This document shows, piece by piece, positions 25,953 to 61,851 of a DNA stretch of 64,000 nt. The DNA is taken from the NCBI GenBank assembly GCA_026636295.1, contig CP089454.1:930001-994000 (forward strand). Reading direction: 5' to 3'. The notes beneath the pieces were generated by a model that worked only from the letters and a program-made list of their open reading frames with translations, did no database searches and had not been told where the DNA came from. The translations under genes were made by a program, and so were the position numbers. The DNA is from Medakamo hakoo. Taxonomy: Eukaryota; Chlorophyta; Trebouxiophyceae; Coccomyxaceae. The number at the start of each line of letters is the position of its first letter. Within the stretch, counting starts at the first letter, position 1.

Positions 25953-28665
25953 TCAGCGCGGCGCGCCGCCGCCCCACCCGCCGGGCGGGCCGGGCGGGGG
26001 CAGGCCTTCCGCCGCGGCTGCCGCCGCGGCGGCAGCAGCGGCCACTTCTAACGCGGCCTGCCAGTCCAGGTCGTCGCCGGCGCCGCCGTCCGACAGGCCG
26101 AGGTGGTCGTGGTGGTGGTGGTGGTGGTGGTGGTGCGGATGGAACGCGCCGCCGGAGCCGCTGCCGCTGCCGCCGCCGCCGCCGCCTAGCACCGCCGCCC
26201 GGCCGGCGCCGGTGCCGGCGCCGCCGTACCCGCCGTGGTGGCTGCTGCCGCCCGAGCCCACGGACCCGCTGTGGTGGCGGTGGTGGTGGCGGGCGGGCGG
26301 CGGCGCGTGCGCGTGCGCCGCGTGCGGGTCGGCCGCGGCGGCGCCGGGCACGCCGGCCGCGGCGCCGCCAGCCTCGTCCTCTAACTCGGACGCGGGTGGC
26401 AGGCGGGAGGACACGCCCGCGCCCGCGGGGGACAGGACGTGGGCCAGGTACGCTTCCCGCACACCCGCCAGCGTGGACGCGGCGGGCGTGGAGGAGGAGG
26501 TGGAGCCAGGCGCGCCGGCAGCGGGCGGGGGAGCCAGCAGCGCGGCCAGGTCGGTCGACCCGCCGCAGCCGCCGCCCACCGCGTCCAGGGCCGCCCATTC
26601 GTAGTACGGCACCGCGCGCACGTCATACCCGCACGCCGCCATAGCGGCCCGGCGCGCGATGGTCCGCCCCAGCGGCCGGCGGGACGCGGCCGCGTGCGCG
26701 CCCGGGCCGTCCAAGTCGAGGTAGATTATGGACGGAGGAGGCGCGCCGCCCGCGGCGCTCGAGGCCGGCGACCCGCCCGGCGGGCTGCCTCCCCCTCCTC
26801 CGCCGCGCATGACCGCGATGTCGAAGCGGAACAGGCCGCACGGCGTCACGCCGTCCCGGGTGTGGGCCAGGTCCATGGCGGCGAGCGTGGACGAGACGGC
26901 CGAGACGAGGGCGGCGGCGCCCGCGCCGGCCGGGCCAGGCGCGCCATCCGGCATCCGCCGGGGCATCGACTCCACGGCCGCCCGCCACGCGCGGGCGCCC
27001 AGGTCGGCCAGCGGGGTGGGAAAGCCGGAGGCCAAGGCGGCGGACGGCGTGGCGCCGGGTCCGTCCGTCGCGAGGGCGGTGGCGGTGAGGGCGGCGGCCG
27101 ACGCGGCCGCGGCCGCGGCCGCGCGCGCGGCCGTCACGGACGCGCCGCTGCCCGCCGCCCCGCCGCTCCCCGACCCAGAGCCGTCCTCCAAGCCCGCCGC
27201 CACCTGGGCGCCCGCCGCCGCCGCAGCCAGGGCCGCCGTGTCGTCCGCCGGGTCGCCGGGCAGGCCGCACCGCCCGCCCAGCATGAGGAAGGCGCCGTAC
27301 AGCAGGACGAGGTCGCCGTCGTCGAACGACGCGGGCGGGACGGCGGCCAGGCGGGCCAGGAGCGCGGCCCAGCCGGCGGCGGGCAGGCCGCCCAGCAGGG
27401 CGGCGGACCAGACCAGGGACGCCAGGTCGCCCAGGCGGTACCGGCCCCAGCAGCGCAGGACGTGGCCGGCCGCCGCGCGGGGGAGCGCCCCCCCCGCCGG
27501 CGCGTGCGCCAGCCGCCCGTACGCGGACAGCGCGTTGGCCACGTCAGCGGGGGCGAAGGCGTCGATGCGCGCGGCGGCCGCGGCCGCCGCCGCGTCCAGC
27601 AGGCCCGCGCCCGGCCAGTGCTCCAGGGCGGCCAGCGCCCACAGCGTGTTGGCCAGCTCTTGGGGCGTGAACGCGGACAGCGAGGCGCGCACGTGCGCAG
27701 TCACAGGCGCGAGCGCGGCGCCGCCCGGGTTGTAGCCCAGCTTGGCCAGGGCCCACAGCGAGTTGGACACGGCCTGGGGCCGGAACAGGTGGACGCGGGA
27801 GGCGGCCTGGGAGGCCAGCGCGTCCAGCGCGGCCGGGCCCGGGTCGTGGCCGAGCGTCGCGCACGCCCACAGCGTGTTTGCGACCTCCTGCGGCTTGAAC
27901 CTGCCCGCCGTCGCGGCGGCCTGGGCGGCCGCCGCCGCCATGAGCGGCCCGCCCGGGTGGTGCCGCATCGTCGCAAACGCCCACAGCGAGTTGGAGATGT
28001 CCTGCGGGACGGAGGACCCCATGTCCGCCGTCATCTGGGCCGCGGCCGCGTCGAGCGTCGGGCGGGGCGGCACGTACCCGAGCTTGGCGAGCGCCCACAG
28101 CGTGTTGGAGGTGGCCTGCGGGCGGAAGGACGTCATGGTGGCGGCGGCGTGGCGGGCGATGCGTTCCAGCAAGTCGTCGGCGGGCAGGTAGCCGAGCGTG
28201 GCAAAGGCTTTGATTTTGGAGGGGGGGTGGGATAGAGTGGGGGGGGTGAGCGTGAGAGAGAGGCGGTCTCTCTCTCCGACCATCCTCACCCGCGTCCGTC
28301 CGCGCCGCGCGCGCTCCCCCGGCACAAGACCGCGGCCCACGCCGCCCACCCGCCACCCACACAACAACGCACCCCACAACGTGTTGGACACGGCCTGCGC
28401 CCCAAACCGGGGCAGCAGCCGCGACGCGGCCGCCACCAGGCGCTGGAACGGGTCCGATGCAAACAGCTGGGCCGGGCCCGACGCGCCGAGCGGGGGTTGC
28501 AGCTTGGCCAGGCGGTGGAGCGCGGTCGCGACGTTGACCTCGTCAAAGACGTGGACGGAGGAGGCGATGACGTCCAGGACCTGCAGTGCGGGAAGCAAGA
28601 CGGACATGAGGGCGGGCGGTATTGAGGAGGTTTCTTTTTTTTGGTCTTGGCGCCCGCGCGGCCCT

Positions 28666-28743
<78 letters not shown>

Positions 28744-29438
28744 TCCACCAACCAACCCACCTGGTAAAAATGCGTCGCGCTCGCCAGCTTTTTGGTGATG
28801 ATCTTGTTGTAGTTGACCTCGCCGCCGGGCGGACCGCCCGGCCCACCGCCCAGCCCGCCAGCGCCGCGGAAGCCGCCGTGGTGGCCGCCGCGGCCACGGC
28901 CCGCGCCCGGCAAGACGCCGCCGCCCGGGCCCGCCCCACCGCCCGGGCGCAGGTAATGCCCGCCGCCGCCGCCGCCGCCGCTGCCGCTGGCGGATGAGGA
29001 GCCGTCGGCGCGTGAGCCGGACGTGCTGGGGCCCAGGCCAGGGATGTACCGGCCGCTGGGCTGCTGCCAGGGCGGGGGAGGGGGCGGCGCGCCGCGGACC
29101 GACAACCCGCCCACGCCCGCAATGAGGGAGGCCAGGTCCGGTTCGCCGCCGCCGCCGCCGCCGCCGCCGCCGGAGGAGGAGGAAGGCTGGTGCAGGGCTG
29201 CTGCGGCCGCGGCGGCGGCGGCTGCAGCGGCGGCGGCTTCGTACGCCACCCAGTCTTCCGGGGTCGCCCGGCCGGCGGGCGGAGGCGGAGGTGGCCGCTC
29301 TTGGGTCGCTCTTGGGCCGTCGGGCGCGGCGCCATCGCCGCGCAGAGGCGGACCGCTCGGCCCGCCGCCCGCGCCACCGTCCACGCCTGGCGCCCGCCAC
29401 ACGCCCGAATAAAGGTTAGGGTCGTCCCACCCCGACAT
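25953..29438 (-). CDS. OPR/FASTK-like repeat protein with RAP domain (organellar RNA binding)
   Basis: Three exons, complement(25953..28207, 28373..28580, 28761..29438), encode 1046 aa; the introns are 165 and 180 bp (phases 1 and 0). The N-terminus is Gly/Pro-rich with a long poly-Ala run. At least seven 35-38-residue repeats follow, of the form PQxxxNTLWALAKLGYxP, for example RPQATSNTLWALAKLGYVPP, VPQDISNSLWAFATMRHHP and TPQELANTLWALAALEHWP. The splice junction of intron 2 falls inside the repeat motif NTLWAFATLGY, which supports the model. The RAP domain follows (SIIYLDLDGPG...PLGRTIARRAAMAACGYDV, then PYYEWAAL). The tail is His/Gly-rich. Such octotricopeptide/RAP proteins bind and process plastid or mitochondrial RNA in green algae. 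A targeting sequence is not obvious at this start. Confidence 0.85.
28669..28740. repeat. (AC)36 microsatellite inside an intron
   Basis: 72 bp of perfect AC dinucleotide lie in the first intron of the OPR-RAP gene. On the transcribed strand this is (GT)36, starting about 20 nt after the 5' splice site. Confidence 0.99.
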
Positions 29439-29950
29439 GGGGAGGGGGCCACGCGCGCGGGCGGGCCCGGCGCGAGCCTTTTGTAAAAATTTGTTCGCCC
29501 GCGCGTCAAAAGGTCGCTCGCTTCGCTCGCCGGCGCCGCGGGCGGCGCCGCCACACGAGGTCGGTCACGCCGAAAACTGCACGAACGACAGCTCAACGGC
29601 GCACCTAAGTGGATGAAAGCGGAGAAGGGGTGGGCACCGCAACACGGTGCGCACGGCCCTGTGAAAACAACGCCCACGCGGAAAAGCCGGAGTGACCCCG
29701 ACCTTACAAGAGAGTGATATCATTCACCTCCCCTCCATCCCAGTCACGGCCTCCCAGCCAACACGCCCTCACACGGCGGCGCGCCTGGCGCCCTGTGCGA
29801 CAAGGCTTACGACACATCGCGGTCCTCGGGCTGTCCAGGAGCGGTGTTTTTGTGTGTGGGGTGCCGCCGCGAGAGGACGAAAAACAGGCAGGGCGCCCCC
29901 AGGTTGGGCCCTTCTCCTACACACCGGCGGCGCCGACGCGTGCACCAGGC
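29439..29950. other. Divergent intergenic region
   Basis: 512 bp separate the OPR-RAP gene (leftward) from the L-2-hydroxyglutarate dehydrogenase gene (rightward). A frame continuous with the latter is open from 29714, but its sequence does not look like protein. I see no RNA gene. Promoters of both genes are expected here. Confidence 0.5.
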
Positions 29951-33364: not shown

Positions 33365-34746
33365 TCACGCCGCGACCGCCGCCCGGCGCCGGGCCTCCGC
33401 CGCCGCCAGCGCCCGCCCCGCCCGGCTGCCCCCACCCGGCCGGCCCAGCGCCCCGCTGATCCAGGCGCCCGCCTCCGCGACCGCCCGGGCGTCGACCCCC
33501 GTCTCCACGCCCAGGCCGTCCATGAGATAAACAACGTCCTCCGTCGCGACGTTGCCCGCCGCGCCGGGGGCGAAGGGGCACCCGCCCAGCCCGGCGACGG
33601 CCGTGTCGTGGACGGTGATGCCGGCGGACAGGGCCGCCAGCACGTTGGCCACGCCCTGGCCGTACGTGTCGTGGCAGTGCGAGGCGAGGGCGGACAGGGG
33701 GACGCCGCCGTCGTGCTCGCAGCTCTGGAACATGGCGACGATGGACCGGGCCGTGCCGACGCCGATGGTGTCGCCCATGGACACTTCGAAGCAACCCAGG
33801 TCGTGGAACAGGCGGGCGGCGACGGCGGCGGCGGCGGCCGGGGCGACGGCGCCCGAGTACGGGCAGCCGACCACGCACGAGACGTAGCCGCGCACCCGCA
33901 CGCCGGCCTCCTTCGCGGCCGCCGCCACGTCCGCGTACCGCGCCAGCGTCTCGTCAATGGACGCGTTCAGGTTGGCTTTGCTGAACGCTTCAGTCGCGGA
34001 CGCAAAGATGGCGACCTCGTCCGCACCCGCCGCCACGGCGCGCTCAAAGCCTTTGAGGTTGGGCGTGAGCACTGGGTAGCGCACGCCCTTGGCCCGCACC
34101 ATGCCGGCCATGACGCCCGCCGCGTCCGCCATTTGGGGCACGGCTTTGGGCGACACAAAAGCCGTGGCTTCGACGACGGGCACGCCCGCGGACGCCAAGC
34201 GGTGGATGAGCTCGATCTTTGTGTCGGTCGTGACCTGCAGTGTGGATGTGATGGGATGGAGGGTGCGCGTGTCGGGTCGGGGTGGAGACGCGCGTCGCTG
34301 TCGGAAAAAAAAACCCGGCTCCCCTCCCCTTCCTCACCGGCGTCGCCTCGTTTTGCAGGCCGTCCCGGGGGCCCACGTCCACGATGGTCACAGACGGAGG
34401 CAGCGGGCGGCCCAGGAGGTCCGGCGTCTGTTTTGTTTTGTGGGGAGAGGGGAGCGCGTGAGGAATTGGTGCTCGTGGCCAACTCGGCTTGTCGCGTGGC
34501 TAGCCTCATGCACCGCCGGCTCAATGCCAGGCGGAAATCGCCAGGCGTTTGTAACGCGCGGACATGGCGAAAAAGCCGGGTCAGGCGGCAAAATGCGTGC
34601 GCTCGGAAGGACGGAAAAGGAGCGCGCACCGTCAGCTCGTGCTTGGCACGCGACCAGGCCGCAGCGGTGGCGCCGGCCGCCTTGGCGCCGCCGCTGCCAC
34701 GGGCGGCCAGCGCGGCGGCCGCGGCGGCCAGGCTGCGGGCCAACAT
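33365..34746 (-). CDS. HMGCL: Hydroxymethylglutaryl-CoA lyase (mitochondrial)
   Basis: Three exons, complement(33365..34234, 34338..34427, 34630..34746), encode 358 aa; both introns (103 and 202 bp) are phase 0. The N-terminus (MLARSLAAAAAALAARGS) is a likely mitochondrial presequence. TIVDVGPRDGLQNEATP carries the catalytic Arg-Asp, VEATAFVSPKAVPQMAD and YVSCVVGCPYSG follow, and SHCHDTYGQGVANVLAAL has the metal-binding histidines. GLGGCPFAPGAAGNVATEDV contains the catalytic cysteine loop. The enzyme splits HMG-CoA to acetyl-CoA and acetoacetate in leucine breakdown. All catalytic residues of the family are visible. Confidence 0.94.
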
Positions 34747-35584
34747 TTGGGAGGTGTGGGTGGGTGGGAGTGGGCGGGGAGAGGCGCGCGCGCACTCCGC
34801 CACGGCCCGCAACTGACGTGTGAGGGAGAGGTCGCGCCGCCAGGAGGGAGACGAAACCTTGCCGGTTTTTTTTTAAGACGGCGGCCCGCGGTAGCGAGCG
34901 AGGGACGGGACGGGCCCAACCCCACGCCCGCCACGCGCGCGCGCCGGCACACTCGGCGAATGAGTTTTTTTACAAACACGACCGGAGTGTGATGGATGAT
35001 GACCCGCGGGGTTTTACTTTTCCTTCCCATCCGCCCATGCCAACGCGGGCGGAAGGAAAAACGAAGGCAACCCCTGTGCTCCCGGCTCGGCGCGTCCCCG
35101 CGTGTATGGACGTATAAGATGGGAAAGGGGGGGGCAAAGGGGGAGGGGAACGCGCACAGAGCGGCCGGGGAAGCAACCCGTCCCGTTGAAACGCTTCGCT
35201 GGGGCGAAACGATAAAAAAAGATGGGGGCCAACCGCCGCCGTCCCGCGGTTGCCTGCCAGGGGGTGTGCCCCCCTCGCACAGCAGACCCGCTTCGAAAGT
35301 CTTGGGTTGGAAGAAAAAACTGAAAAGGCGCCAAAAAACTCGAGCCCGCACACCACCACCCTTGGCTCGCAACCACCAGAAAAAACTCTCTCTCTCTCTC
35401 AAACTTTTCGCGGCGTCCGCACCCCCACAGGAACGTACGCGGTCTTTGCTTCTCATCAGACTCTCACGCACACACTCACTCACGCTCTCGCTTGGACATT
35501 GTCGCTTTCCCCCCCACAACACCAGCAAAAAAAAGCCAAAAAAACACGCACCCACCACCCACGCCCAACGAAGAAAAAAAAACC
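34747..35584. other. Intergenic region upstream of HMG-CoA lyase
   Basis: 838 bp between the HMG-CoA lyase start and the stop of the decarboxylase fusion, both on the minus strand. It is richer in A/T runs than the coding DNA, including poly-A tracts near 35570-35585. No supportable ORF or RNA gene is seen. It holds the decarboxylase 3' UTR and the lyase promoter. Confidence 0.5.
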
Positions 35585-38500
35585 TCACGCCGCTTCCGAC
35601 CACGCGTACACCACCGCCGGCCGCGTCGCGTCGAAACCATTGAACGCGGACGCACCCGCCAGGGTGTACGCCCCCATGGCCGGGAAGGCCACCCAGTCGC
35701 CCGGCTGGAGGGGGGGGAAGGGGTAGTCGGAGAGCACGGTGTCGAGGCCGTCGCAGGTCGGGCCAAAGAGCGTCGACCGCACGTGGCCCGCGGGCACGTG
35801 CGCGCAGCAGCCCAGCCCGCACGAGTTGTGGGCGTCGGACGAGGACCGGGGCACGGTGGTGGGCCGGGCGGGCGCGGGCGGAGCCGTCGCCGCGTCGGCT
35901 TCGACCAGCACCGGCGGCTCGCCGCAGCAGACGGGCGAGGGCGGGTCGGGTTCGGGGCCGGCCGCGCCCGCCCCGGCCGCACGCCCGCCGCACCCGCCGC
36001 CGCCCGTCGGCCCCACGCCCGCCAGGGGGCGAGCAGACAGCGTGGCGTGGTCGTACAACACCGAGTTCATGGAGCCGTACAGGCCGTCCGTGATCCAGTA
36101 GGCGCGCGTGGGCGCGCCGCACGACGCGGCCCCGTCGCGCACGCCGTACACCAGGCACGCGAGCGTGGCGGCGCCCTCGGCGAAGTACCGCCCGGGCTCC
36201 GCGATGACGCGCACGTCGGGCGTGGGGCGGCCGGCCGCGTCCAGGCCGCCCCCCGGCGGGAAGTGGGCGTCCAGCGCGGCGTTGACCGCGTCGGGGACGG
36301 CGCCCAGGTCCAGGCCGGCCGGGTAGCGGGCCGGCTCGGCCCCGGCCGGCGCGGGCGTCGGCGCGAGGAAGCCGCCGCCGATGTCCAGGATCGTCATGGC
36401 GTGCCCCGCCGCCGCGCCCACTTCAAAGGCGTCGCGGGCCAGGGCGATGGCCGACGCGAACGCGTCCGGGTTGGAAGCGCCCGACCCGACGTGGAAGGAG
36501 ACGCCGACGACGGCGACGCCCAGCTCCGCGGCGCGGGCCAACAGCGCCGGCGCGTCGTCCGGGTCGGCGCCGTACTTGTTGCCCAGCTGGCAGCGAGCGG
36601 CCGGGTCGTCGGCGCGCAAGCGAAGCAGCGCGCGCGAGGACGGGTGGAGCGTCGCCAGCTTGGCGAGCTCGGCCGCCGTGTCGAAGGTCGTCAGGTCGAC
36701 GCCGACCGCGGCCGCGTGGCGCACGTCCGACGGCCGCTTGCACGCGTTGGCGTACACGATGCGGGAGGGCGGCACGCCCAGGGCCAGGACCAGGTCGACT
36801 TCTGCGGCGGACGCGCAGTCAAAGCCGGCGCCCAGGGCCGCGAGCGTCGCGACGAGCGCGGGGTCGGGGTTGCACTTGACGGCGTAAAACGGCGCGACGC
36901 GCGGCAGGCGGGCCGCCCAGGCCGCGTGCGCGCGCGCGACCGCGCCCAAGTCCAGCAGGTAGACGTTGTCCTCCAGGCCGTGCGCGTTGATGGCGGCCGC
37001 CAAGGCCGCGTCGACGGCGGCCGCGTCGCCGGTCGGCAGCGCGACCGCGCGCGCGGCCGCCAGGACGGCCGGCAGCGGCGCGGGCGCGGCGGGCCGGGCC
37101 CGGCGGGCGGCAGCGGACGCGGGGCGCGGCGGGGCCGGCGTCGCGGGCGCCAGCAGCGCGGACAGGGCGGCCGACGGGCAGGCCGCGCCCGCCTCGGCGA
37201 GGAGGGCGGGGGAGAGGGAGGGCATGGACGGCGCGCGGCGCGGCGGGAGGCCGGGCGGGAGCGGGACGCCCGCGCCCGCCAGGGGCGGCAGGGGCGACGG
37301 CGCGCGCGTCGACCCGCCGCCCAGCGACACGGGTGGCAGCGGGGACGGCGCCCGGGCGGGCGGCGCGGCCAGGGCGGCCGGAGGCACGGGCGAGGGCGGG
37401 CGCGCGGGCGGCGGCGCCGCCGCGGCGGCCGCCTCGGCCAGCGCGCCGCCGTCGTCCGACCCACTCTTGCCCAGCTCCGCGCACGACACCGCCAGGGAGG
37501 ACGTGGCCGAGAACAGGGAGGGCGACAAGCGGAGCGGGCCGCGCGGGGAGGGCGGGCCGGAGGAGGGGCCGGACGCGGTGGCGGGGGAGCCAGGAGCGGG
37601 CGCGGCGGCGGCGGCGGCGGCGGCGGCCGCGGCCGCGGCCGCTGCAGCCTTGGCGGCCGGCGCCGCGCCGCCCGGCCCGCCGCCCTTCTTCCCGTCCGCG
37701 ACCAGGCAGTAAAAGGCGGTGCGGCCCCGCCCCCCAAAGTCCTGCGCCGCCGCGCCGTGGAAGGCGTACCCCGCCGGGAAGCACAGCGACGACAGCAGCC
37801 AGGGGCAGAACGCGACGTCGGCGTCGACGGACATGGCGACGGACATGCGGGCGGGCGCGAAGATGGCGGCCACGTGCGCGACGACGGCGGAGGGGCACAG
37901 GCCCTCGGCCGCGTACCCGCACAGCTCCACGGACGCGTACGAGCAGTCGGGCTCGGGCGTGACGTGGATGGTCGAGAACGCGGGGCCTTCGATGCCATTC
38001 ATCGAGTAGCCGCACGGGTCGAAGACGAAGTCGTCGACGTCGGCGCCGGGCAGCAGGGCCCGGACGCCGGTGGCGGCGGTGACGGCGGCGGCGCCCGCAA
38101 AGTCCGGGCGGCGCGCGAACTGGGCCGCCCGCCCCGGGTCAAGGCCGGTCATGCAGACCTCGAGCGTGTAGGTCGGGCCGCGCGCGCACGGGGGCAGGGG
38201 CGCGTCCAGGGCGGACGCCGCGCCGTCCGGCCCGTCTTCGGCGGCGAGGGCTGCCGACGCGGCCCGGCCCGGAGAGGCGGGCGTCGAGGACGCGACGGTC
38301 GCGGCGGCGGTGCCGCCGCCCGCAGGGGTGGGCGGGGCCGACGGCGCCGGGCGGGGCGCGGGCGGCGGCGAGGCCGGCCGGCCTCCCTCCCCCAGGCCCG
38401 CCGCCGCCAGCTGGCACGCGGCCGCCGCGACGACGTCCTCCACCGGCGCGGGGAAGGCGCGCCCGGCGCCGGCGCCCGCCGCCACCGCCGCCGCCGCGGC

Positions 38501-39507
38501 CGAGTCGTCGGCGATGAAGACGTGCCACTGGAGGCCGGACAGCGCGTCGCCCAGCACGTACGCGGCGCCGCCGCCGCCCAGGTGGCCAAAGTGCTGCCTG
38601 AGCGTGGCCGCCTCCGCGCCAAAGTCGTGGTGCGGGGCGGGCTGGGCGGACGGGAAGAGGAAGGAGGCGCGCGAGTACTTGACGCGGCAGGGCGCGAGGC
38701 CGACGGTCGCCGCGGCGGCCAGCATGCCCGGGACGGCCGCCAGCAGCCGGGTCGTCCCGCACGTCTTCAGGACGAGGCGCGTCGGGTAGACGAAGAGGGA
38801 GGATTCCGAGAGCACGTACGCGTCCAGGTGGGCGTTGGACCGGGAGGAGACGATGCAGCAGGCGGCCTGGGGTAGTGGGGGAGGGAGAGGGAGGGGAAAG
38901 GGAGGGGGCGTGAGGGGTGGTGGTGGTGGGAAGGTGGTGGGAACGCGACGAGAGAGGGATGCGGGCGCGCCTGGGCACGCCGCGCGCGGGCGGAAAAAGA
39001 GGCCCGGCGGGCACGGCGTGCGCGTCCGTTCCTGGGCCTCCCACCCACGGCCGTGGCACGCCCGCCCCTCTACGGAAGGGGGGCGGCGATGGCAGCGGGC
39101 AGGTGGAGGCGCGGGCGCAGGGCGGCGGCGGCGGCGGGGAGAGGGCCCCCACAGCCGCGCCGTCAGCGCCGCTGGCCAAGGCGTCGGCACCCGCACGGGC
39201 GCAAAAACGCTGGCGCCTTGCCTCCCACCGCCTCCGCCAGTCGCCCACCCCACCCAGGCCGGGACTTGAGGGCGTCAGGCCATCGCAGGCAAGGGCCACG
39301 CGACAGCGGAAAGCAGCGCACGCGCGCAGTTTGCACTCCCAAAAACTCCCGCACCTGCTCCATCAGGTCGTCCAGCACGGACCGCGGCAGCGTGCGCAGC
39401 CCGGCGGGTGGCGCGCCAGGCCCGCCCGGCGCCGCGTAAAAGTCGACTTCCAGCCGCTTCTCGCTGCCTTCGAAGGCGGGCGGCGACAGGTGGGCGGCGT
39501 CAGCCAT
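35585..39507 (-). CDS. Bifunctional S-adenosylmethionine decarboxylase / ornithine decarboxylase
   Basis: Two exons, complement(35585..38866, 39355..39507), encode 1144 aa; the 488-bp intron is phase 0. Residues 1-440 are a complete eukaryotic AdoMet decarboxylase. FEGSEKRLEV carries both N-terminal acidic residues. The intron splits just before AACCIVSSRSN. YVLSESSLFV is the self-cleavage site (E72/S73, giving the pyruvoyl group). KTCGTT and a plant-type GYSMNGIEGPAFSTIHVTPE with the processing histidine follow. After a 200-residue Ala/Pro linker, residues about 655-1144 are ornithine decarboxylase: FYAVKCNPDP with the PLP lysine K715, SFHVGSGA, DIGGGF, EPGRYF and GPTCDGLD with the catalytic cysteine, and MGAYT. 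One chain would thus make putrescine and decarboxylated AdoMet for spermidine synthesis. No frame break lies between the halves. Location is probably cytosolic. Confidence 0.93.
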
Positions 39508-52991: not shown

Positions 52992-55900
52992 TCACCGGCG
53001 CCGGACCGCCAGCGCCTCCACCGCCGACCGCACGCCCGCATCACCCGCCACCAGCTTCTCCAGGGCGGCCACCAGGCCGTCCCGGCCTTCCGCCGACTCG
53101 GCCAGCGCGGACACCGCGCGCGCGGCCGCGGCCGAGCGCAGGGCCTTTAGTTCGGCCGCGACGGTGGCCGCGCCCGCCCCGGACGCCGCCCACGCCAGGA
53201 AGGCGCGGTCGTCCGCCCAGTCGGCCGCCGACCCGCCGTCGGCGGACTCAAACCAGGCTTTGATCAGGCCGCGCGCCGCGTCCAGGCCCAGGCCGGCATC
53301 CGCGGCGGCGACGTGCTTCGCGAGCTCGTCCTCAGCCAGGCGGCGGCGCAGGCGGCGCGCGAGGAACGAGCGCGCGCCGGCCCACGGCACGACGCCCGCC
53401 AGCACGCCCTTGGCCGCCATGCGGGCGGGCGTGTCGTGCATGTCCGCAAACGCGACGGCGGCCTGGCGGTACGCGGGCAGCAGGGCCGCCTCCCGTTCGG
53501 CGACGGCGGCCGCGGCTGCGGCCGCGCCCGGCCCGCCCGCCGCGGCCGCGCGCCGCCCGGCCGCAATCTCCGGGTCCAGGCGCTGCATGGCCGCCAGCAG
53601 GTCCGGCGTCCGGAACTTGATTTCCACGAGGCCTTCGGGTTCCAGCACGCCGCCGCGCGCGGCCGGGTCCGCGTACATTTCCACGCGGCCGGCGTTGATC
53701 TGGGCGTCGATGACGACCCATGCGCCGCCGCGCAGCTCCGCCCCCGGCGGCAGGTAGACGAAGACGGGCTGGCGGTACGTGCGGAGCTGGTCGACGATGA
53801 GCGAGCCGGCCTGCAGGACGCCCTCGAACAGGTCGCGCTGCCCGCCGGAGAAGCCGCGCCAGTTGGCCAGGATGACGAGGGGCAGGCCCTCCGCGTCAAA
53901 CTCTTCCATCGCGTGCGCGGTCTTGAGCGCCGAGTCGGGGAACCACACCTGGCCCGCCTGCGGGACGGTGCGTTCGGACGAGTCGGGCGCGCCCGGGTCG
54001 GCCGGGATGTTGAGCATGACGGTGGAGGACTCGACGGCGATGACGCCGACGGGCAGGCCGCCCAGGCGGGCGCGGCCCGTGACGACGGTGCGGGCCCAGC
54101 CCGCCTGGACCTCCGTCCACGACCCGCGGTCAAAGAGCCCGGCCTGCCACCCGTCGGCCGGGGCGGGCGGGCCGCCGTCGCCGTCGCCGACAACCGGCGG
54201 GGCGGGCCGGCCAGCGATCGCCGCCCGCGGGTCCAGCTTCTCGCCCGGGCCGGGCGCGTAGGTGACGGGCCGGTCGACGGGGTCGGCCGACGCGAGGAGC
54301 GGCGGCACGCCGCCGATCGTCGGCGGCACGTACGACAGCCACGCCAGCGCGGCCGCAATGCCTTGCAAGTCGTCGTCGACGACGGCGTGCGAGACGCCGT
54401 TGACGCCCATGACGCGGGGCCCGCCCAGCTGCATGTGGGAGGAGTAGACGTCCCGGCCCAGGACCTTGTTGAGGGCGGCGTAGCCGGTCAGGATGATGGG
54501 CTGGTCGGAGCGCTGGATGCACCGCCGGCCGAGGCGGGCCAGGTAGGCGCCAATGCCGACGGTGCGGCCCGACACCAGCGTGAGCGTGAAGCCCTCCCGG
54601 AAGGCGCGGCAGTAGGCGGACGCGATGGCGCCCGACCCCGACAAGTTCTCGACGCCCAGGCCGTCCTCGCACCCGATCACGTCGGTCAGGCGCCAGCGGC
54701 GCGATGCGCCGGCCGGGCCGTCCACGGGTTCCGCGCGGACGGCGCCGGGCGAGCGGGCCGTGATGGACTTGTAGTCCTCGTCCGCCAGGAACAGGTAGGC
54801 CGGCCCCTTGGACGGGTCGCCCGGCACGGCCCACTCGACCTGGAGGCAGGCCTTGACTTCGGCTGCCAGCCCCACGCGCGCGCCGCTGTTTGCGGCCAGG
54901 TAGACGAGCGGCAGCCGCTCCGCCAGGGCCAGCTCCGTCGCGGCGCGGAAGGCCGTGTCTTCGCGCGGGCCGAACGCGCCGGAGTTGAAGGTGATGTCGT
55001 TGGCGACGGCGACCAGGCGCCGGCCGGCGGGGCACTCGGGCGTGCGCAGCGTCAGCACCCAGGCCACGACGCCGCAGTCGTTGGCGCCGACGGCCCGGGC
55101 GACGGGCACCATGGGGGGCGTGGCGGTGAAGGACGCGGCGTGCGCCGGGTCGACGACCATTTCCACGGCGTCCACCAGGCGCGTGGTCGGCGGCGGGCCG
55201 CCGGGCTCGCGCGCGGCCGCGCGCGCGGCCCACGCGCCGCGCAGCGCGTTTTCAAAGACGGACGGGAAGTCGTAGCAGTAGGTCGTCCGGTGGCGGCGGG
55301 CGGCCAGGCGCTTTTGTTGGAGGCCGGCCAGCGGCGGGTAGCCGGTGAGCAGGGGCGTGCCGGCGAGCGGGCCGCCGGCCGCGTCGCCGGGCGCGGGCGC
55401 GTAGACGGGCACGCCCGGCGGGAGCGGCGGCGCGGCCGCCCCCCCGGCGGCGGCGCCGTCGCCGCCCGACGACGCGGCTTCGCGGTACACCTCCACGTTG
55501 TCCTCGCCCGTCTCGTGGCCGGTCGGGGACGCGACCACGACGCGCCACGCGCCACCGCCGTCGGCCGTGCGCAGGCGGACCTCCCACTGGGCCAGGCCGA
55601 CGCGGCGGACGGCGGGGCCGTGCGCGGCCAGCAGGCCCGCGGCCGCGCCCTTGAGCGCCGCCGCCACGCGGGCGCCCGCCGCCGCGTCGGACGCGGGCGC
55701 GCCCAGGGGCAGGGGCGGCAGGACCGTCAGGTAGACGTGCGCCCAGTCGACGCCCGCGCCGGCGGCGGAGGAGCCGCCGGCGCCGCCGGCGCCCGCGCCG
55801 CCCTTGGCGGGCGCGAGCGCGGCGCGCTCCACTTCGGCCAGGGCCTCTGCGAACGCGGCGCCGACTTCTTCAAAGGCGGCGGCGGCCACGGCCGCGGCGT

Positions 55901-58900
55901 CGCCCTTGTAGGTCGCGGCCAGCAGCGCGGGGCGCCCCAGCTGGCGGACGGCGCCGCGCACAAACACGCGGCGCAGGGCCAGCGACCGCGCGTCGCGGCG
56001 CTCCGTGACCGAGTATGTGTGCGCCTGGCGGTTGCGGGACGGCGCGTACGCGATGCGCGGGCCGAGGGGGGCGAGGCGGGCCAGCTCCAGCAGGTGGGCG
56101 GTGGGAGGTTCGACGGCAGACAGGAGCGGGTCGGGCCAGAAGCCCAGGCGCGGCGCGGCGCCGCCGTCCGCCCCACCGCCCGGCAGGGCCCGGCGCCACA
56201 GGCCGACGCGCAGCGGCGCGACGGCCAGGCCGACCTTGGTCAGCACAGACACGGCCTCATACCCGGCCGCCAGCAGGCGCGGTTCCACGTCCTTGACGGC
56301 CGCGATGACGGCCGCGACGGCCGGGCGCGGGTCGGCGCCCATCCACGGGTCGGCCGCGCCCGGGCCCCACCCCGCGGCGTTGAAGGCGGCGGCCGCCGCG
56401 CCGGCTTCGGCGGCGTGCGCGGCGGCGGAGGGGGCCAGGCGCAGGGCGGCGTCGCCGCCGCGGGTCAGGACGACGTGCAGCGTGCCGCGACCGGCGCCGG
56501 GCCCGCCCAGGCCCGACGCGTCGACCGCCGCGTCGGCGGCCGCGACGGCCGCAACCAGCTGGTCAAGGCCGCCCACGACAGCGGCGGCGGACACGGCCGA
56601 CCGGGCGGCGGGCGTGGCTTCCAGGGCCGGGTGTTCGGCCACCCAGGCCGCGGCCAGGGGGGCGGCGGCAGGGGGTGGGGAGGTGGGCGCGGACGACCCG
56701 CCGGCGCCGGCTTCGGCGGCCGTAGGCTCGTCCAGCCCGGCCGCCGGCGCGCCGCCCGAGTTGGACGGGGAGGGGCCCGCGCCGCCCACGACGAAGGGGT
56801 CTTGCAGCAGGAAGGGGTGGTAGACGCGTTTGACGTACGTGGTCAGGGCGCGCAACGCCAGCGTCGCGTCGCGCGAGTCCAGGAGCGAGGCGAGCGCGTC
56901 CTCGACCGCGGCCGGCGCTTCGACCAGGAGGCGCACTTTTGCGTCGAGCGCCGTTGCGGCCAGGGACGGGCAGGCGGCGGTCGAGCCGGGCGTGGTGGGA
57001 GGGGCGGCCGCGGCGGCCAGGGCGGCCAGCGCAGTGACGGGCCCGGAGGAGCCGGCGGCGGCGGCGGAGGAGCCGGCGGACGAGGCGCCGCCGCCCGCGG
57101 CCATCAGGCCGGTGTACAAGCCTTCGACGACGGTCGTGCGGCGTTGCAGCATGTCCAGGTCCAGCGCGCCGTCGTCCTCTTCGACGGCGGCGCCGCCTTC
57201 CTTGGACCCGTCTTGCAGCAGGTCCAGCCCAGACAGGCGGGCGCCCGCAAACATGTCGAGCCCCGACAGCGCGCGCGCGACGACGGCTTGCAGCTCGGCC
57301 AGGAGCGAGTGTTCGAGCAGCTGCTGCGCGCGCGCGGCCGCTTCGCCGCCCGCGGGGCCGAGGGCGGCCATGCGGCGCAGGAGCGGGCGGTAGGCTTGCG
57401 GCGCCGGGAGGACGAGCGCGCCCATCAGCAGCGACGCCAACCGCACTTTGGCGGCCAGGCCCTGGTGGGCGACGACGATGTCGACGACCGCGCCCAGGTT
57501 GCCCGCAAACACTCCGCGCAGCGAGTCGATCACCTCCTGGTCCGTCATGGTGGGCGGGCCGCCCGGAGCGGCGGCGGCAGCGGCGCCGTCGGCGGTGGGA
57601 GCGGCGGGCGCGGCGGGCGCGGCGGCTTCAGCGGCAGACGCGGGCGCGTCGGACTCGGCCTTGGCGCCGTCCTTGCCGCCGGCTTTGCCGCCGCCCGCGC
57701 GCGGGCCCGCAAACCGTTCCTCGACCGCCAAAAAGTCTTCAAACAGCTCCGTCACCACGGACCGGGCGTACGCTTCCTTGCCCGCGGCGTGCGCTTCCGC
57801 GACGCGGACCAGCGGCTCCGCGGCCGTGGTGATGGCGGCCGCGTCGGCCGGGGTGGGCGCGGCCGCGACGGCGTCGGCGATGGCGGCCAGCAGCGGGCGG
57901 GCGGGGAAGGCGGGCGCGGCCTGGTCGGAGCCGCCGCCGCCGGCGACTGGGCTCGCCGGGTAGCCTTCGTCCGACCCGTCCGGGCCGCCACCGCACGCCA
58001 TCAGGTCGGCTTCGTGCGCGCCCGCAATGGCTTCCAGGCGGGCCGCCAGCTCGCCCGGGATGCGGGTCTGCTGCACCGCGAAGACTTCCGTCCACTGCAG
58101 GAGCGCGAGCGCCGGGTCGTCCAGGCACGCCAGCAGGTCCGACACCACCGCCTCCGGCGGGTGCTCGTAGCCGGCCATCACCATTTTCGCGGCTTCGCGC
58201 GCGGCCTTGAACCGGTGGTCCACGCCCTGGGAGTGGACCAGGGGCGGGCCGCAGTCCGGGAAGCCGCCGGTGTAGGGCTGGGCTTTCGGGATGGCCGACG
58301 CGTCGGCGAGGTCGAGCCGCGCGATCAGGTCGCCGGCCGACAGGACGCCGCCCTCGGGCAGGACGTGGTGCAGCACGCCCGCCGCGCCGGGGGTGAGCGG
58401 CATGAGCATCTTCATGACCTCGATTTCCGCGTACGGCGTGTCGGGCGCCACGGCCGCCCCGTCGTCGACCAGGTAGCGGACGAGCTTGCCGGGGGACGGC
58501 GCGGCCAGCCGCGACGGGTCGGCCTCCGTCTCCAGCAGGCACGTCAGCGAGTCGATGGTCAGCCGCGTCCCGCCCGCTTCCTCCTCGGCGTGGACGACGT
58601 GGGCCTGGCCGTCCACCTGGATGTGCAGGCCGCCGTCGTTCAGGCGGCGGGCGACGACGTCGACGGACGAGGCGGCGGGGGCGGCCGACCCCCCGTCGGC
58701 CGACGCGCCGCCGCCCGCGCCCCCGCCCAGCGACACGCGGAAGGATTGCGGGCCGCGGCGGACGACGGCCGGCGCGTACTTCATGCCGTCCAACACAAAC
58801 TCCGTGCCAAACTGGGTCAGGGTCAGGCGCGCGGGCGGGAGCTGGCCCTTCTCCAGGAAGGACAGGTACTCGGACGACCGGGCGGCCGCCGCGTCGAGCG

Positions 58901-61851
58901 CGCGCAGCAGCGCGCCCGCAATCACGGCCAGCCACCACGCCGGCTTCTCCGCCGTCACGTGCGCGGCGATGCGCGCGTCCAGCCAGCCCGTGTGCACCTC
59001 GTTCGCCACAAAGGCCCGGTCCTGGATCATCTCGACGGCGTAGTCGACGATGTTGCGGATCTCGCCCCGGATCTTGACTTCCTTGAGCGCGACGACCATC
59101 GCGCGAATCGCGGCCTCCCGGCTCTCGCCCTTGGCGAACAGGTGCCCAAACTGGGAGTCGGAGAACTCGTGGATGCCGCCGCCCGACTTGACGGAGAAGT
59201 AGCCCCACACGTCCGGGCTCGTGCGGAAGGACAGCTCGTCGATGGCGCCGCACGTGGGCTTGAAGCCGGCGTTGGCGTCCTCGGACGTCACGCGCACCGC
59301 GACGACGTGGCCGGACGGCTTGACCTGGGGGACGGCCTCGAAGTCGATGGGGGACGAGCCGGCCGGGTCCTGGCCGTGCAGCCGCCGGATGTCCGGGATG
59401 CGGTGGAGCGGGACGCCCATGCCGACCAGCAGCTGGACGGACGGGATGTTGACGCCGGAAATCCATTCGGTGACCGGGTGTTCCACCTGGAGGCGCGGGT
59501 TGAGCTCCAGGAAATAAAACTCGCCGCTCTCCAGGGCGTACAGGTACTCGACCGTCGCGGCGCCCACGTACCCGACGGCGCGGGCCAGGGCGCGGGCGCA
59601 CGCCTCCATTTTCGCCAGTTTTTCGGGGGGCGCCTTGGTGACGGGCCCTTCCTCCACGATCTTCTGGTGGCGGCGCTGGACGGAGCAGTCGCGGGAGAAG
59701 ACGGACGTGACGCCGCCGTGCGCGTCGCAGACCAGCTGGACTTCCAGGTGGCGGGAGGTCGGGGCCAGCTTCATGGCGAAGATGGGCGAGCCGGGCACCT
59801 CGCCCTGGACGGCGCGGAACGCGGCCTTGACGTCCGCCTCGCCCGCCACCTTGCGGATGCCCTTGCCGCCGCCGCCCCACGACGCCTTGAGCATGACGGG
59901 GTAGCCGATGGCCGCGCACGCCGCGGCCGCCTGGTCCGCGGTGTGGATGCAGGCCTTGTCGTAGACGTCGGCGGGGATGACGCCGCCGCACGACGCAAAG
60001 TCGACGGCCACGCCCGTCCCGGACCAGGGGATGGTGGGCACGCCGGCCGCCTGGGCCAGGATGGTCGACCCGATCTTGTCGCCCAGGGCCGCCATGGCGG
60101 CCGCGCCGGGGCCCAGGAACCGGATGCCGGCCGCGGTCTCGGCCAGGGCCGTGGGCAGCTCGGGCTTCTCCGACGCGTGGCCCCACCCGGGCCAGACCGC
60201 GTCCACGTTGGCCCGGTCCGCCACCTGGACGATGAGCGGCACGTTGGCGTAGTTGTTGTTGTTGGAGCCGCCCGGCACCTCCACAAACTGGTCGGCCATG
60301 CGCACGTGCTCCGCGTCCGCCGCCAAGTCCTCGGGCGTGGCCATCGCGACGATCGCGACCGCGCGGTCGTTGCCAAACGTCTTGTACGCCCAGGACCGGA
60401 TGGACCGCATGAACTTGACGGCGGCCAGGCCGTTGTTGGCGACGAGGACGCTGTGCGGTGTTTGGGGGGGACGGGTGGGGTGGGGTGAGGGGAGGGGAGG
60501 GGGTTGGCGTGGGTGTGCGGGGACGTGTGGGCGTCAGTGTGTTGGAGGAAGGTGGTTGGACCGCCGACAGCGCACGGCGCGCGCCCGCGCCCGCGCCCCT
60601 CTCCCCCCTCCCCACCCATCCCCCCTCAAACAACCCTCTCACCTGTGGATGGCCTTGTCGCCGCCCAGCTCCCTGACTTTGGCTTCAACCTGGGAGTTGA
60701 GGGATGGGACGCGCTTGGGGACGCCCATCTTCAGCGGGTTGGAGCCTTGCCTGTTTGTTTGTTGGATGGGATGGGATGGGATGGTCCAGAGGGGGAGGGG
60801 GGGGGGGGCAGGGGACAGGGGTGTGAGTGGTTTTCTGCACACTAAACGGCGCCGCCGACACCGAAGGACGGCGGCGGCAATGCCCGCTCCACGCCAGGGA
60901 GGTGGTGCCATGGGCCCTATGCCCAGTCAGATTGGCCGGCGCGTGTCGTGGCGCCGCCGCGGCGGGCGGCGGGCGGGTGCAGAAGCCGCGCGCGCTCAGC
61001 CCATCTTTTTCGTTTCGGCTTGGGGAGGCTCGACCATCCAACACCGGGCGGAAAAAGTGGCGGCGGCGGCGGGTTTTCGCCCCTCCCGAAACGGCTGCGA
61101 CGCCCGCGGGAGGCCACGCGATCGTGTGCGGCCCGCCTGAGGGCGGCCGCGGGCGCCGGCCCTCCCCCAGGCGGAGTGGGAGGCGGGCCAGAGGTCGAGC
61201 GGGTTGGTGGAAAAAACTCCCTCCCACACGGGGCGGGCAGTCCAAGGAAACGCGCGCGCCAGGGCCGTGGCCCTGGTCGCGCCCGCTCGTTCTATGCACA
61301 CATGCATGGAACCAGCCCCAGTGCGCCCTCCCAGCCGGGCGGTGCATCGAGGGACGGTCGTGGAGGGCGGGCCGGCCCGGCGCAAAGGCGCGTGAATGGC
61401 AGGCACCGCGCCGCAACGTGGCTCTTCGCCAAGACGGCGCGGGCCGGGCCACACGCCCGCTGCGCCAATCCCATTCCTCTCTAGGTCGCAGGCCCAAACA
61501 CCCAAGTGTCGTCCAGGGTGGGCAGGAAGAGGAGGGGAGCCTCCCCCGCCGCCGCCGCGGCCTCTCCAGTGACGGCCGGTCGCGCACCGCGCACTCGCGG
61601 CCACGATTCAGCACCCCAGCTCCCTTTCGCGGTTCGCGCCGCGCCCGCTTCCCCCCCACCCCACCCCTTCCTTCCACGACGCACCGCGACAGGTCGCTCA
61701 GGCTGTTGGTCCGCTTGGTCATGGACGGCAGGCGGCCCTCCAGGAAAGACCCGCCGCGCGGCAGGCCGCCGGCCGAGGAGGGCGGCGCGGGCGGCGCCGC
61801 GCCGTTGGGCGCGGGCGAGCCCGCGTTGGCAAACGGCGTCGGCTGCTGCAT
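52992..61851 (-). CDS. ACC1: Homomeric (multidomain) acetyl-CoA carboxylase
   Basis: Three exons, complement(52992..60450, 60643..60750, 61685..61851), encode 2577 aa. Exon 3 alone is 7459 nt; the introns are 192 and 934 bp, both phase 2. The splice-joined segment GGDKAIHSVLVANNGLAAVK is the conserved start of the biotin carboxylase domain. PGGSNNNNYANVPLI, KASWGGGGKGIRKV (ATP loop) and EVQLVCDAHG follow. The biotin lysine is K772 in EIEVMKMLMPL. A long central region precedes the carboxyltransferase halves (VANDITFNSGAFG, LGRDVYSSHMQLGG, GWARTVVTGRARLGG, LANWRGFSGGQRDLF). It carboxylates acetyl-CoA to malonyl-CoA. No transit peptide is apparent (MQQPTPFANAG), so a cytosolic enzyme supplying elongation and secondary pathways is likely. 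It is somewhat longer than the plant/yeast enzymes (about 2250 aa) because of Ala/Gly loops. Confidence 0.96.

Follow-up and report, generated by a model that had tools for sequence, protein, structure and literature searches.

A predicted gene fusion of AdoMet decarboxylase and ornithine decarboxylase in the green alga Medakamo hakoo

The AdoMet decarboxylase (AdoMetDC) of plants is an unfused enzyme, and ornithine decarboxylase (ODC) works as a dimer in which the subunits share their sites. In the fusion of these two enzymes from Plasmodium, AdoMetDC comes first. Micromonas is a green alga of the class Mamiellophyceae, for which Green et al. 2011 (Mol Microbiol 81:1109) reportedly describe an AdoMetDC-ODC fusion in their abstract. 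Published descriptions place both Plasmodium decarboxylases on one ORF (PMC5004602, PMC3912857), and extra inserts and a hinge of this enzyme are named in titles cited by PMC3912857 and in a table footnote there that names a hinge-ODC construct. For 11 algal species, ODC and SAMDC accessions are given in Table 2 of PMC6356823. The same accession, XP_003057072.1, stands in both columns for Micromonas pusilla, SAMDC is marked as absent from Chlorella variabilis, and the two accessions differ in nine of the 11 species, including Bathycoccus, Chlamydomonas and Volvox. This table was the only record of a green-algal AdoMetDC-ODC fusion in the literature searched, and none was found in the available text of PMC12803844, PMC10407285, PMC8503589 and PMC3476827.

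A fusion of this kind is predicted here for Medakamo hakoo, from a stretch of 64,000 nucleotides of contig CP089454.1 (the window). In the openly licensed literature searched, no report of an AdoMetDC-ODC fusion in Medakamo was found, and the word "polyamine" is absent from the main text of the genome paper (PMC9871001). Compared with the Plasmodium AdoMetDC/ODC as described in print, the Medakamo protein likewise carries both decarboxylases on one ORF. It differs from that description in its Ala/Pro-rich linker and inserts, in an AdoMetDC half whose closest solved structure is a plant enzyme, and in being accompanied by a second, free ODC in the genome. With Micromonas, known here from the shared accession alone, it has in common the same enzyme pair in a green alga; unlike Micromonas of the Mamiellophyceae, Medakamo belongs to another class, the Trebouxiophyceae. 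The earlier note on this DNA regarded the fusion as best known from Plasmodium and relatives. The Plasmodium precedent stands, but the green-algal one, Micromonas XP_003057072.1 (PMC6356823, Table 2), had been missed. The AdoMetDC-ODC fusion is not new to green algae, and Medakamo provides a further example in what is probably another class.

The predicted gene runs on the minus strand from an ATG at 39507 to a stop at 35585, with two exons encoding 1144 residues. Its parts, in window positions, are as follows.

39355..39507, minus strand: exon 1, 153 nt, residues 1-51, the start of AdoMetDC with E13 and E16 (translation, alignment and residue mapping)
38867..39354, minus strand: intron, 488 bp, GT...AG, phase 0, with donor GTGCGG and acceptor CCACTACCCCAG
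35585..38866, minus strand: exon 2, 3282 nt, residues 52-1144 and the stop
38393..38866, minus strand: first part of AdoMetDC in exon 2, residues 52-209, with the cleavage site and C87 (PF01536 stretch 11-175)
38801..38806, minus strand: putative AdoMetDC self-cleavage site E72-S73 with the pyruvoyl-forming serine, equivalent to human E67-S68 (alignment to solved AdoMetDC chains)
38180..38392, minus strand: Ala/Pro-rich insert within AdoMetDC, residues 210-280, unaligned and flanked by homologous stretches
37685..38179, minus strand: second part of AdoMetDC, residues 281-445, with S339, H352 and E356 (alignment and mapping)
36968..37684, minus strand: Ala/Pro linker, residues 446-684, with an Ala run and the in-frame Met599
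36014..36967, minus strand: PLP-binding barrel domain of ODC, residues 685-1002, with K715, H843, E941 and D990 (PF02784 at 692-947)
35786..36013, minus strand: Gly/Pro/Ala-rich insert within ODC, residues 1003-1078, unaligned and flanked by homologous stretches
35588..35785, minus strand: C-terminal sheet of ODC, residues 1079-1144, with C1089, D1090 and Y1118 (PF00278 at 1079-1116)

Translation and residue mapping bore out the coordinates, the two-exon structure, the 3282-nt second exon, K715 and the GPTCDGLD motif of the earlier note, all of which were correct. One alignment with human AdoMetDC, starting from residue 6 of the human protein, covered exon 1 and continued across the splice junction. 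Against the NCBIfam AdoMetDC equivalog TIGR00535 (cut-off 233.15), exon 2 alone scored 225.2 bits, slightly below the cut-off, and the AdoMetDC part with exon 1 scored 258.5 bits, above it. The first intron of lysA in the same genome, which was placed by homology, displayed the junctions CAG/GTG...CAG/GC, the same form as in the fusion-gene intron. The junction-spanning alignment, the effect of exon 1 on the NCBIfam score and the similar lysA junctions thus indicate that the predicted intron model is sound.

The Pfam family SAM_decarbox (PF01536) matched the 1144-residue protein in two stretches, with an E-value of 3.5e-87 and 293.1 bits (cut-off 22.2). By the curated profile cut-offs, the AdoMetDC half is predicted to be a class 2 (eukaryotic) AdoMetDC. 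In alignments to solved structures, its residues E13, E16, E72-S73, C87, S339, H352 and E356 corresponded to human E8, E11, E67-S68, C82, S229, H243 and E247, respectively; the roles of the catalytic residues of AdoMetDC and ODC are general knowledge. Among the solved structures, the closest relative of this half was the plant entry 1mhm, which we take to be potato AdoMetDC (194.9 bits, E-value 2.1e-56, 47% identity across the aligned fragments), while the best human entry scored 121.5 bits. In plant AdoMetDC, three residues presumably fill the putrescine site, and their equivalents here are R18, K114 and S397. Of these, R18 is kept, K114 is a conservative replacement (for R) and S397 differs (for H). 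The description of this half as plant-type therefore holds overall, with 1mhm as the best solved match, but not in detail, with one of the three putrescine-site residues kept, one conservatively replaced and one changed.

A regulatory uORF of the plant type was searched for with seven short patterns in all six frames of the window. Six patterns had no match and DVRP had four, none of them upstream of the fusion gene; the patterns were modelled on the plant peptide, and a divergent or spliced uORF could escape them. Inspection by eye of the frames listed for the 2.5 kb that precede the start codon revealed no small uORF of the plant type.

In the ODC half, Orn_Arg_deC_N (PF02784) matched residues 692-947 with an E-value of 2.2e-67 and 227.5 bits (Pfam cut-off 23.4). 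Orn_DAP_Arg_deC (PF00278) matched residues 1079-1116 with an E-value of 2.7e-13 and 50.4 bits (cut-off 23), covering only the last 38 of its 95 profile positions (58-95). Residues K715, D734, E740, R800, H843, S846 and E941 corresponded to human K69, D88, E94, R154, H197, S200 and E274, and R944, Y981, D990, C1089, D1090 and Y1118 to human R277, Y323, D332, C360, D361 and Y389. The best solved matches were human ODC (313 bits), the viral arginine decarboxylase A207R (238 bits) and a lysine/ornithine decarboxylase (173 bits), and the best DAPDC reached 77 bits. This half is predicted to be an ODC of the alanine-racemase fold, with ODC and not DAPDC or ADC as its nearest kin. The low-complexity inserts (residues 210-280 and 1003-1078) are located between conserved stretches and leave the mapped catalytic residues untouched. 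The earlier note had called the catalytic motifs of both enzymes complete, and every mapped residue was indeed present.

The two halves are separated by 239 residues, counted from the last AdoMetDC motif to NVYLLD. The last ~35 of these look like the usual ODC lead-in, so the previous estimate of about 200 residues was a fair one. The linker DNA is of low complexity with a G+C content of 87%. An open frame here is weak evidence by itself, because a stop-free frame was kept in 53% of 2000 linker shuffles and the antisense strand over the same place carries an ORF of 1127 residues. The codon bias was more informative. The 94 A/T bases of the linker were distributed as 39/47/8 on codon positions 1/2/3 (chi-square p = 1.3e-6), which matches the pattern of the catalytic parts. 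There were four 30-codon sliding windows in which position 3 was not the poorest in A/T, two at residues 211-255 in the AdoMetDC insert and two at residues 451-495 in the linker. All four are Ala/Pro stretches with few A/T bases at position 2. By translation, Pfam and codon bias, AdoMetDC comes first and ODC follows in one continuous reading frame. The fusion in one frame proposed in the earlier note was upheld, as both families occur in one 1144-residue protein far beyond chance and the codon bias continues in frame. At the level of the predicted protein, the observation is confirmed and the join looks real.

The linker DNA had 79 matches in the genome when 40 of the 49 candidates were scored, namely one full-length copy and 78 partial ones, the longest covering 265 of 717 bases. 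Two separate genes might have been joined by an assembly error at this place, since a low-complexity sequence with 87% G+C is a setting where assemblies can fail, and the 78 additional partial matches point in the same direction. However, frame and codon bias are continuous on both sides of the linker, the full-length linker occurs as a single copy, no second AdoMetDC was found, and the genome paper gives a long-read coverage of 246.8x (PMC9871001). An assembly artefact is unlikely, and we consider a false join of two separate genes extremely improbable.

Within the 717-nt linker, no stop occurs in any of the three sense frames, which likewise speaks more strongly for the join than the open frame by itself. 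Counted from the first base of the linker, frame 0 is open up to the ODC stop at 2097 nt, and frames 1 and 2 meet their first stops at 991 and 863 nt, so that all three lie past the end of the linker. A transcript running from AdoMetDC into the linker therefore cannot terminate translation there. This bears on the idea that the working enzymes are separate despite the fused gene, either because an internal promoter or a start at Met599 gives additional ODC on its own, or because the linker is cut after translation. An in-frame ATG is indeed present in the linker (residue 599, window position 37225), and long Ala/Pro linkers are in general exposed and easily cleaved. But no sequence feature demands separate enzymes. 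Because none of the sense frames is closed by a stop between AdoMetDC and ODC, a separate mRNA for AdoMetDC with its end in the linker would have no stop codon. Separate working enzymes seem improbable, and one gene very probably encodes one bifunctional AdoMetDC-ODC enzyme.

The genome searched comprised 15,638,232 bases in 16 contigs, and the G+C content of the window was about 74% (mean of 32 rows). The published genome has 18 contigs, two of them organellar, with 15,811,321 bases in total and 72.7% G+C (PMC9871001). The fusion was the only AdoMetDC match in the genome (the search detected the fusion gene and none of the 14 prokaryotic controls). Besides the fusion, PF02784 matched at two other places, a free ODC on contig C9 and a lysA-like gene on contig C5. 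Thus, AdoMetDC was found in the genome only in the fused form, whereas ODC occurs there both fused and free. As no other AdoMetDC was found, the fusion gene should be functional if the alga makes decarboxylated AdoMet. The free ODC had eukaryotic ODCs as its best solved matches, kept the conserved K, H, E, C and D columns, and was 54% identical to the fused ODC over the aligned parts. In a tree of seven ODC rows, the fork uniting the two algal ODCs had a support of 83/87, short of the starred level, and the composition of the fused row was unusual. With 54% identity and a grouping at only 83/87 in this seven-row tree, the putative free ODC is not a recent copy of the fused one.

None of the three PF02784 places of the genome looked like a separate arginine decarboxylase of this fold, although introns may hide weak matches. 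Agmatine deiminase (PF04371) had no match in the genome, with five of 14 control genomes matched, and ODC antizyme (PF02100) had none either, with a profile that also matched 0 of 14 controls. Two aminopropyltransferases were detected as scanned fragments. The one on C5 was closest to the solved spermidine synthases 1 and 2, which we take to be plant enzymes, and the one on C12 was closest to thermospermine synthase. Both fragments scored below the whole-protein cut-offs of the NCBIfam spermidine synthase equivalogs. Most likely, the fusion enzyme would supply spermidine and thermospermine synthases.

From its motifs, the AdoMetDC part would fold and cleave itself between E72 and S73, producing the pyruvoyl cofactor. 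The cleavage would separate a small beta chain from a large alpha chain, which would keep the ODC and decarboxylate AdoMet. The C-terminal ODC part would bind PLP on K715, pair with a second copy and decarboxylate ornithine. The long flexible linker may allow both parts to fold and dimerise independently. A single protein would then provide both substrates of spermidine synthase, putrescine and decarboxylated AdoMet, with the two enzymes in a fixed ratio. Channelling between the halves is not expected, because the two reactions have no common intermediate. For the alga, the fusion more likely serves co-regulation through equal dose than channelling, and its expected effect would be dose matching and joint turnover. 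Substrate channelling has been discussed as an advantage of the Plasmodium arrangement (PMC3912857). The title of Wrenger 2001, as cited in PMC3912857 and PMC5004602, speaks of balanced synthesis by the Plasmodium enzyme without domain-domain interaction, which disfavours a tight coupling. The proposed coupling of putrescine and decarboxylated AdoMet supply was weakened by the free ODC on C9: with a second ODC in the genome, the putrescine supply would not be wholly tied to the fusion.

Fused relatives were searched for in viral, prokaryotic and plasmid collections. In viral contigs, none of the pattern matches was confirmed as such, neither for the exon 2 protein (0 of 6) nor for the AdoMetDC (0 of 14) and ODC (0 of 14) alignments. 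In contigs of prokaryotic genomes, one of 20 pattern matches of the AdoMetDC alignment was confirmed. This contig (L009) encodes an unfused AdoMetDC without a credible adjacent ODC (best ODC match with an E-value of 0.20), and it looks like a eukaryotic contig inside a bacterial MAG. Among plasmids, 25 of 72,556 records matched, none over 80% of the query, and the 10 matches listed were to the ODC part only. A fused relative was not to be expected in collections of prokaryotic, viral and plasmid DNA, and its absence from them says little.

Two green algae of different classes, counting Micromonas by its entry in PMC6356823, have the fusion. It might therefore be an old chlorophyte trait, shared with Micromonas by common descent and lost elsewhere, and not an independent event. 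This would require several losses or splits, as Table 2 of PMC6356823 lists separate accessions for Bathycoccus, Chlamydomonas and Volvox and marks SAMDC as absent from Chlorella variabilis, and we consider common descent doubtful. Equally tentative is the view that the AdoMetDC-ODC fusion arose independently a third time, in the trebouxiophyte lineage, by capture of one of two ODC copies. In this case, the fused copy would make the putrescine needed for spermidine and thermospermine, in a fixed ratio to decarboxylated AdoMet, and other needs for putrescine would fall to the free copy.

With Medakamo, a trebouxiophyte alga probably joins the few lineages in which an AdoMetDC-ODC fusion is recorded, which supports the view that this arrangement is not peculiar to parasites. 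A repeated origin of the pair, if true, would suggest selection for matching both supplies. As the alga also has a free ODC, it is a natural test case for the contribution of the fused form. Other fusions of polyamine enzymes described in PMC12803844, PMC6356823 and PMC10407285 include AdoMetDC-aminopropyltransferase proteins of bacteria and diatoms and the bacterial SpeD1-SpeD2, but their partners differ from those in Medakamo. In SpeD1-SpeD2 the second decarboxylase is of the pyruvoyl type, whereas that of the Medakamo fusion is of the PLP type.

The frames around the fusion gene look like ordinary genes. A Pfam family was matched at an E-value of 1e-5 by 17 of the 20 neighbouring frames scanned, which were 19 of the 21 periodic frames and the frame at 34632-36158. 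The neighbours include a MatE transporter, an HMGL-like protein, a universal stress protein, an ER retention receptor and a multi-domain acetyl-CoA carboxylase.

The genome containing the fusion also encoded an unfused ODC, and a lysA-like match and a spermidine synthase match were located on another of its contigs, C5.

G000:C9:494645-498355, match at 1501-2211 (locus L005): second, unfused ODC gene
G000:C5:1053689-1054321 and 1058659-1059207 (loci L006 and L007), opposite strands: lysA-like match and spermidine synthase match

The catalytic columns were conserved in the free ODC, which had eukaryotic ODCs as its best solved-structure matches and displayed 54% identity to the fused ODC across the aligned parts. 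On C5, about 4.3 kb separated the lysA-like match from the spermidine synthase match.

A class 2 AdoMetDC was detected on a contig assigned to a Verrucomicrobiaceae MAG.

JAIYDP010000003.1:43139-59960 (L009): class 2 AdoMetDC in several pieces

These pieces lay in differing frames in an intron-like pattern, and the contig is probably a eukaryotic contaminant of the MAG.

Three other long frames were identified in the window.

35492-38875, plus strand: 1127-residue ORF antisense to the AdoMetDC-ODC fusion
52995-60533, minus strand: multi-domain acetyl-CoA carboxylase (eukaryotic type), single unbroken 2513-residue frame
25956-29564, minus strand: 1203-residue frame with a FAST kinase-like subdomain 1 match

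The antisense ORF is probably a shadow of the G+C-rich third codon positions of the fusion; ORF length is poor gene evidence in the Medakamo hakoo genome. The FAST kinase-like frame may encode an organelle RNA-binding protein.
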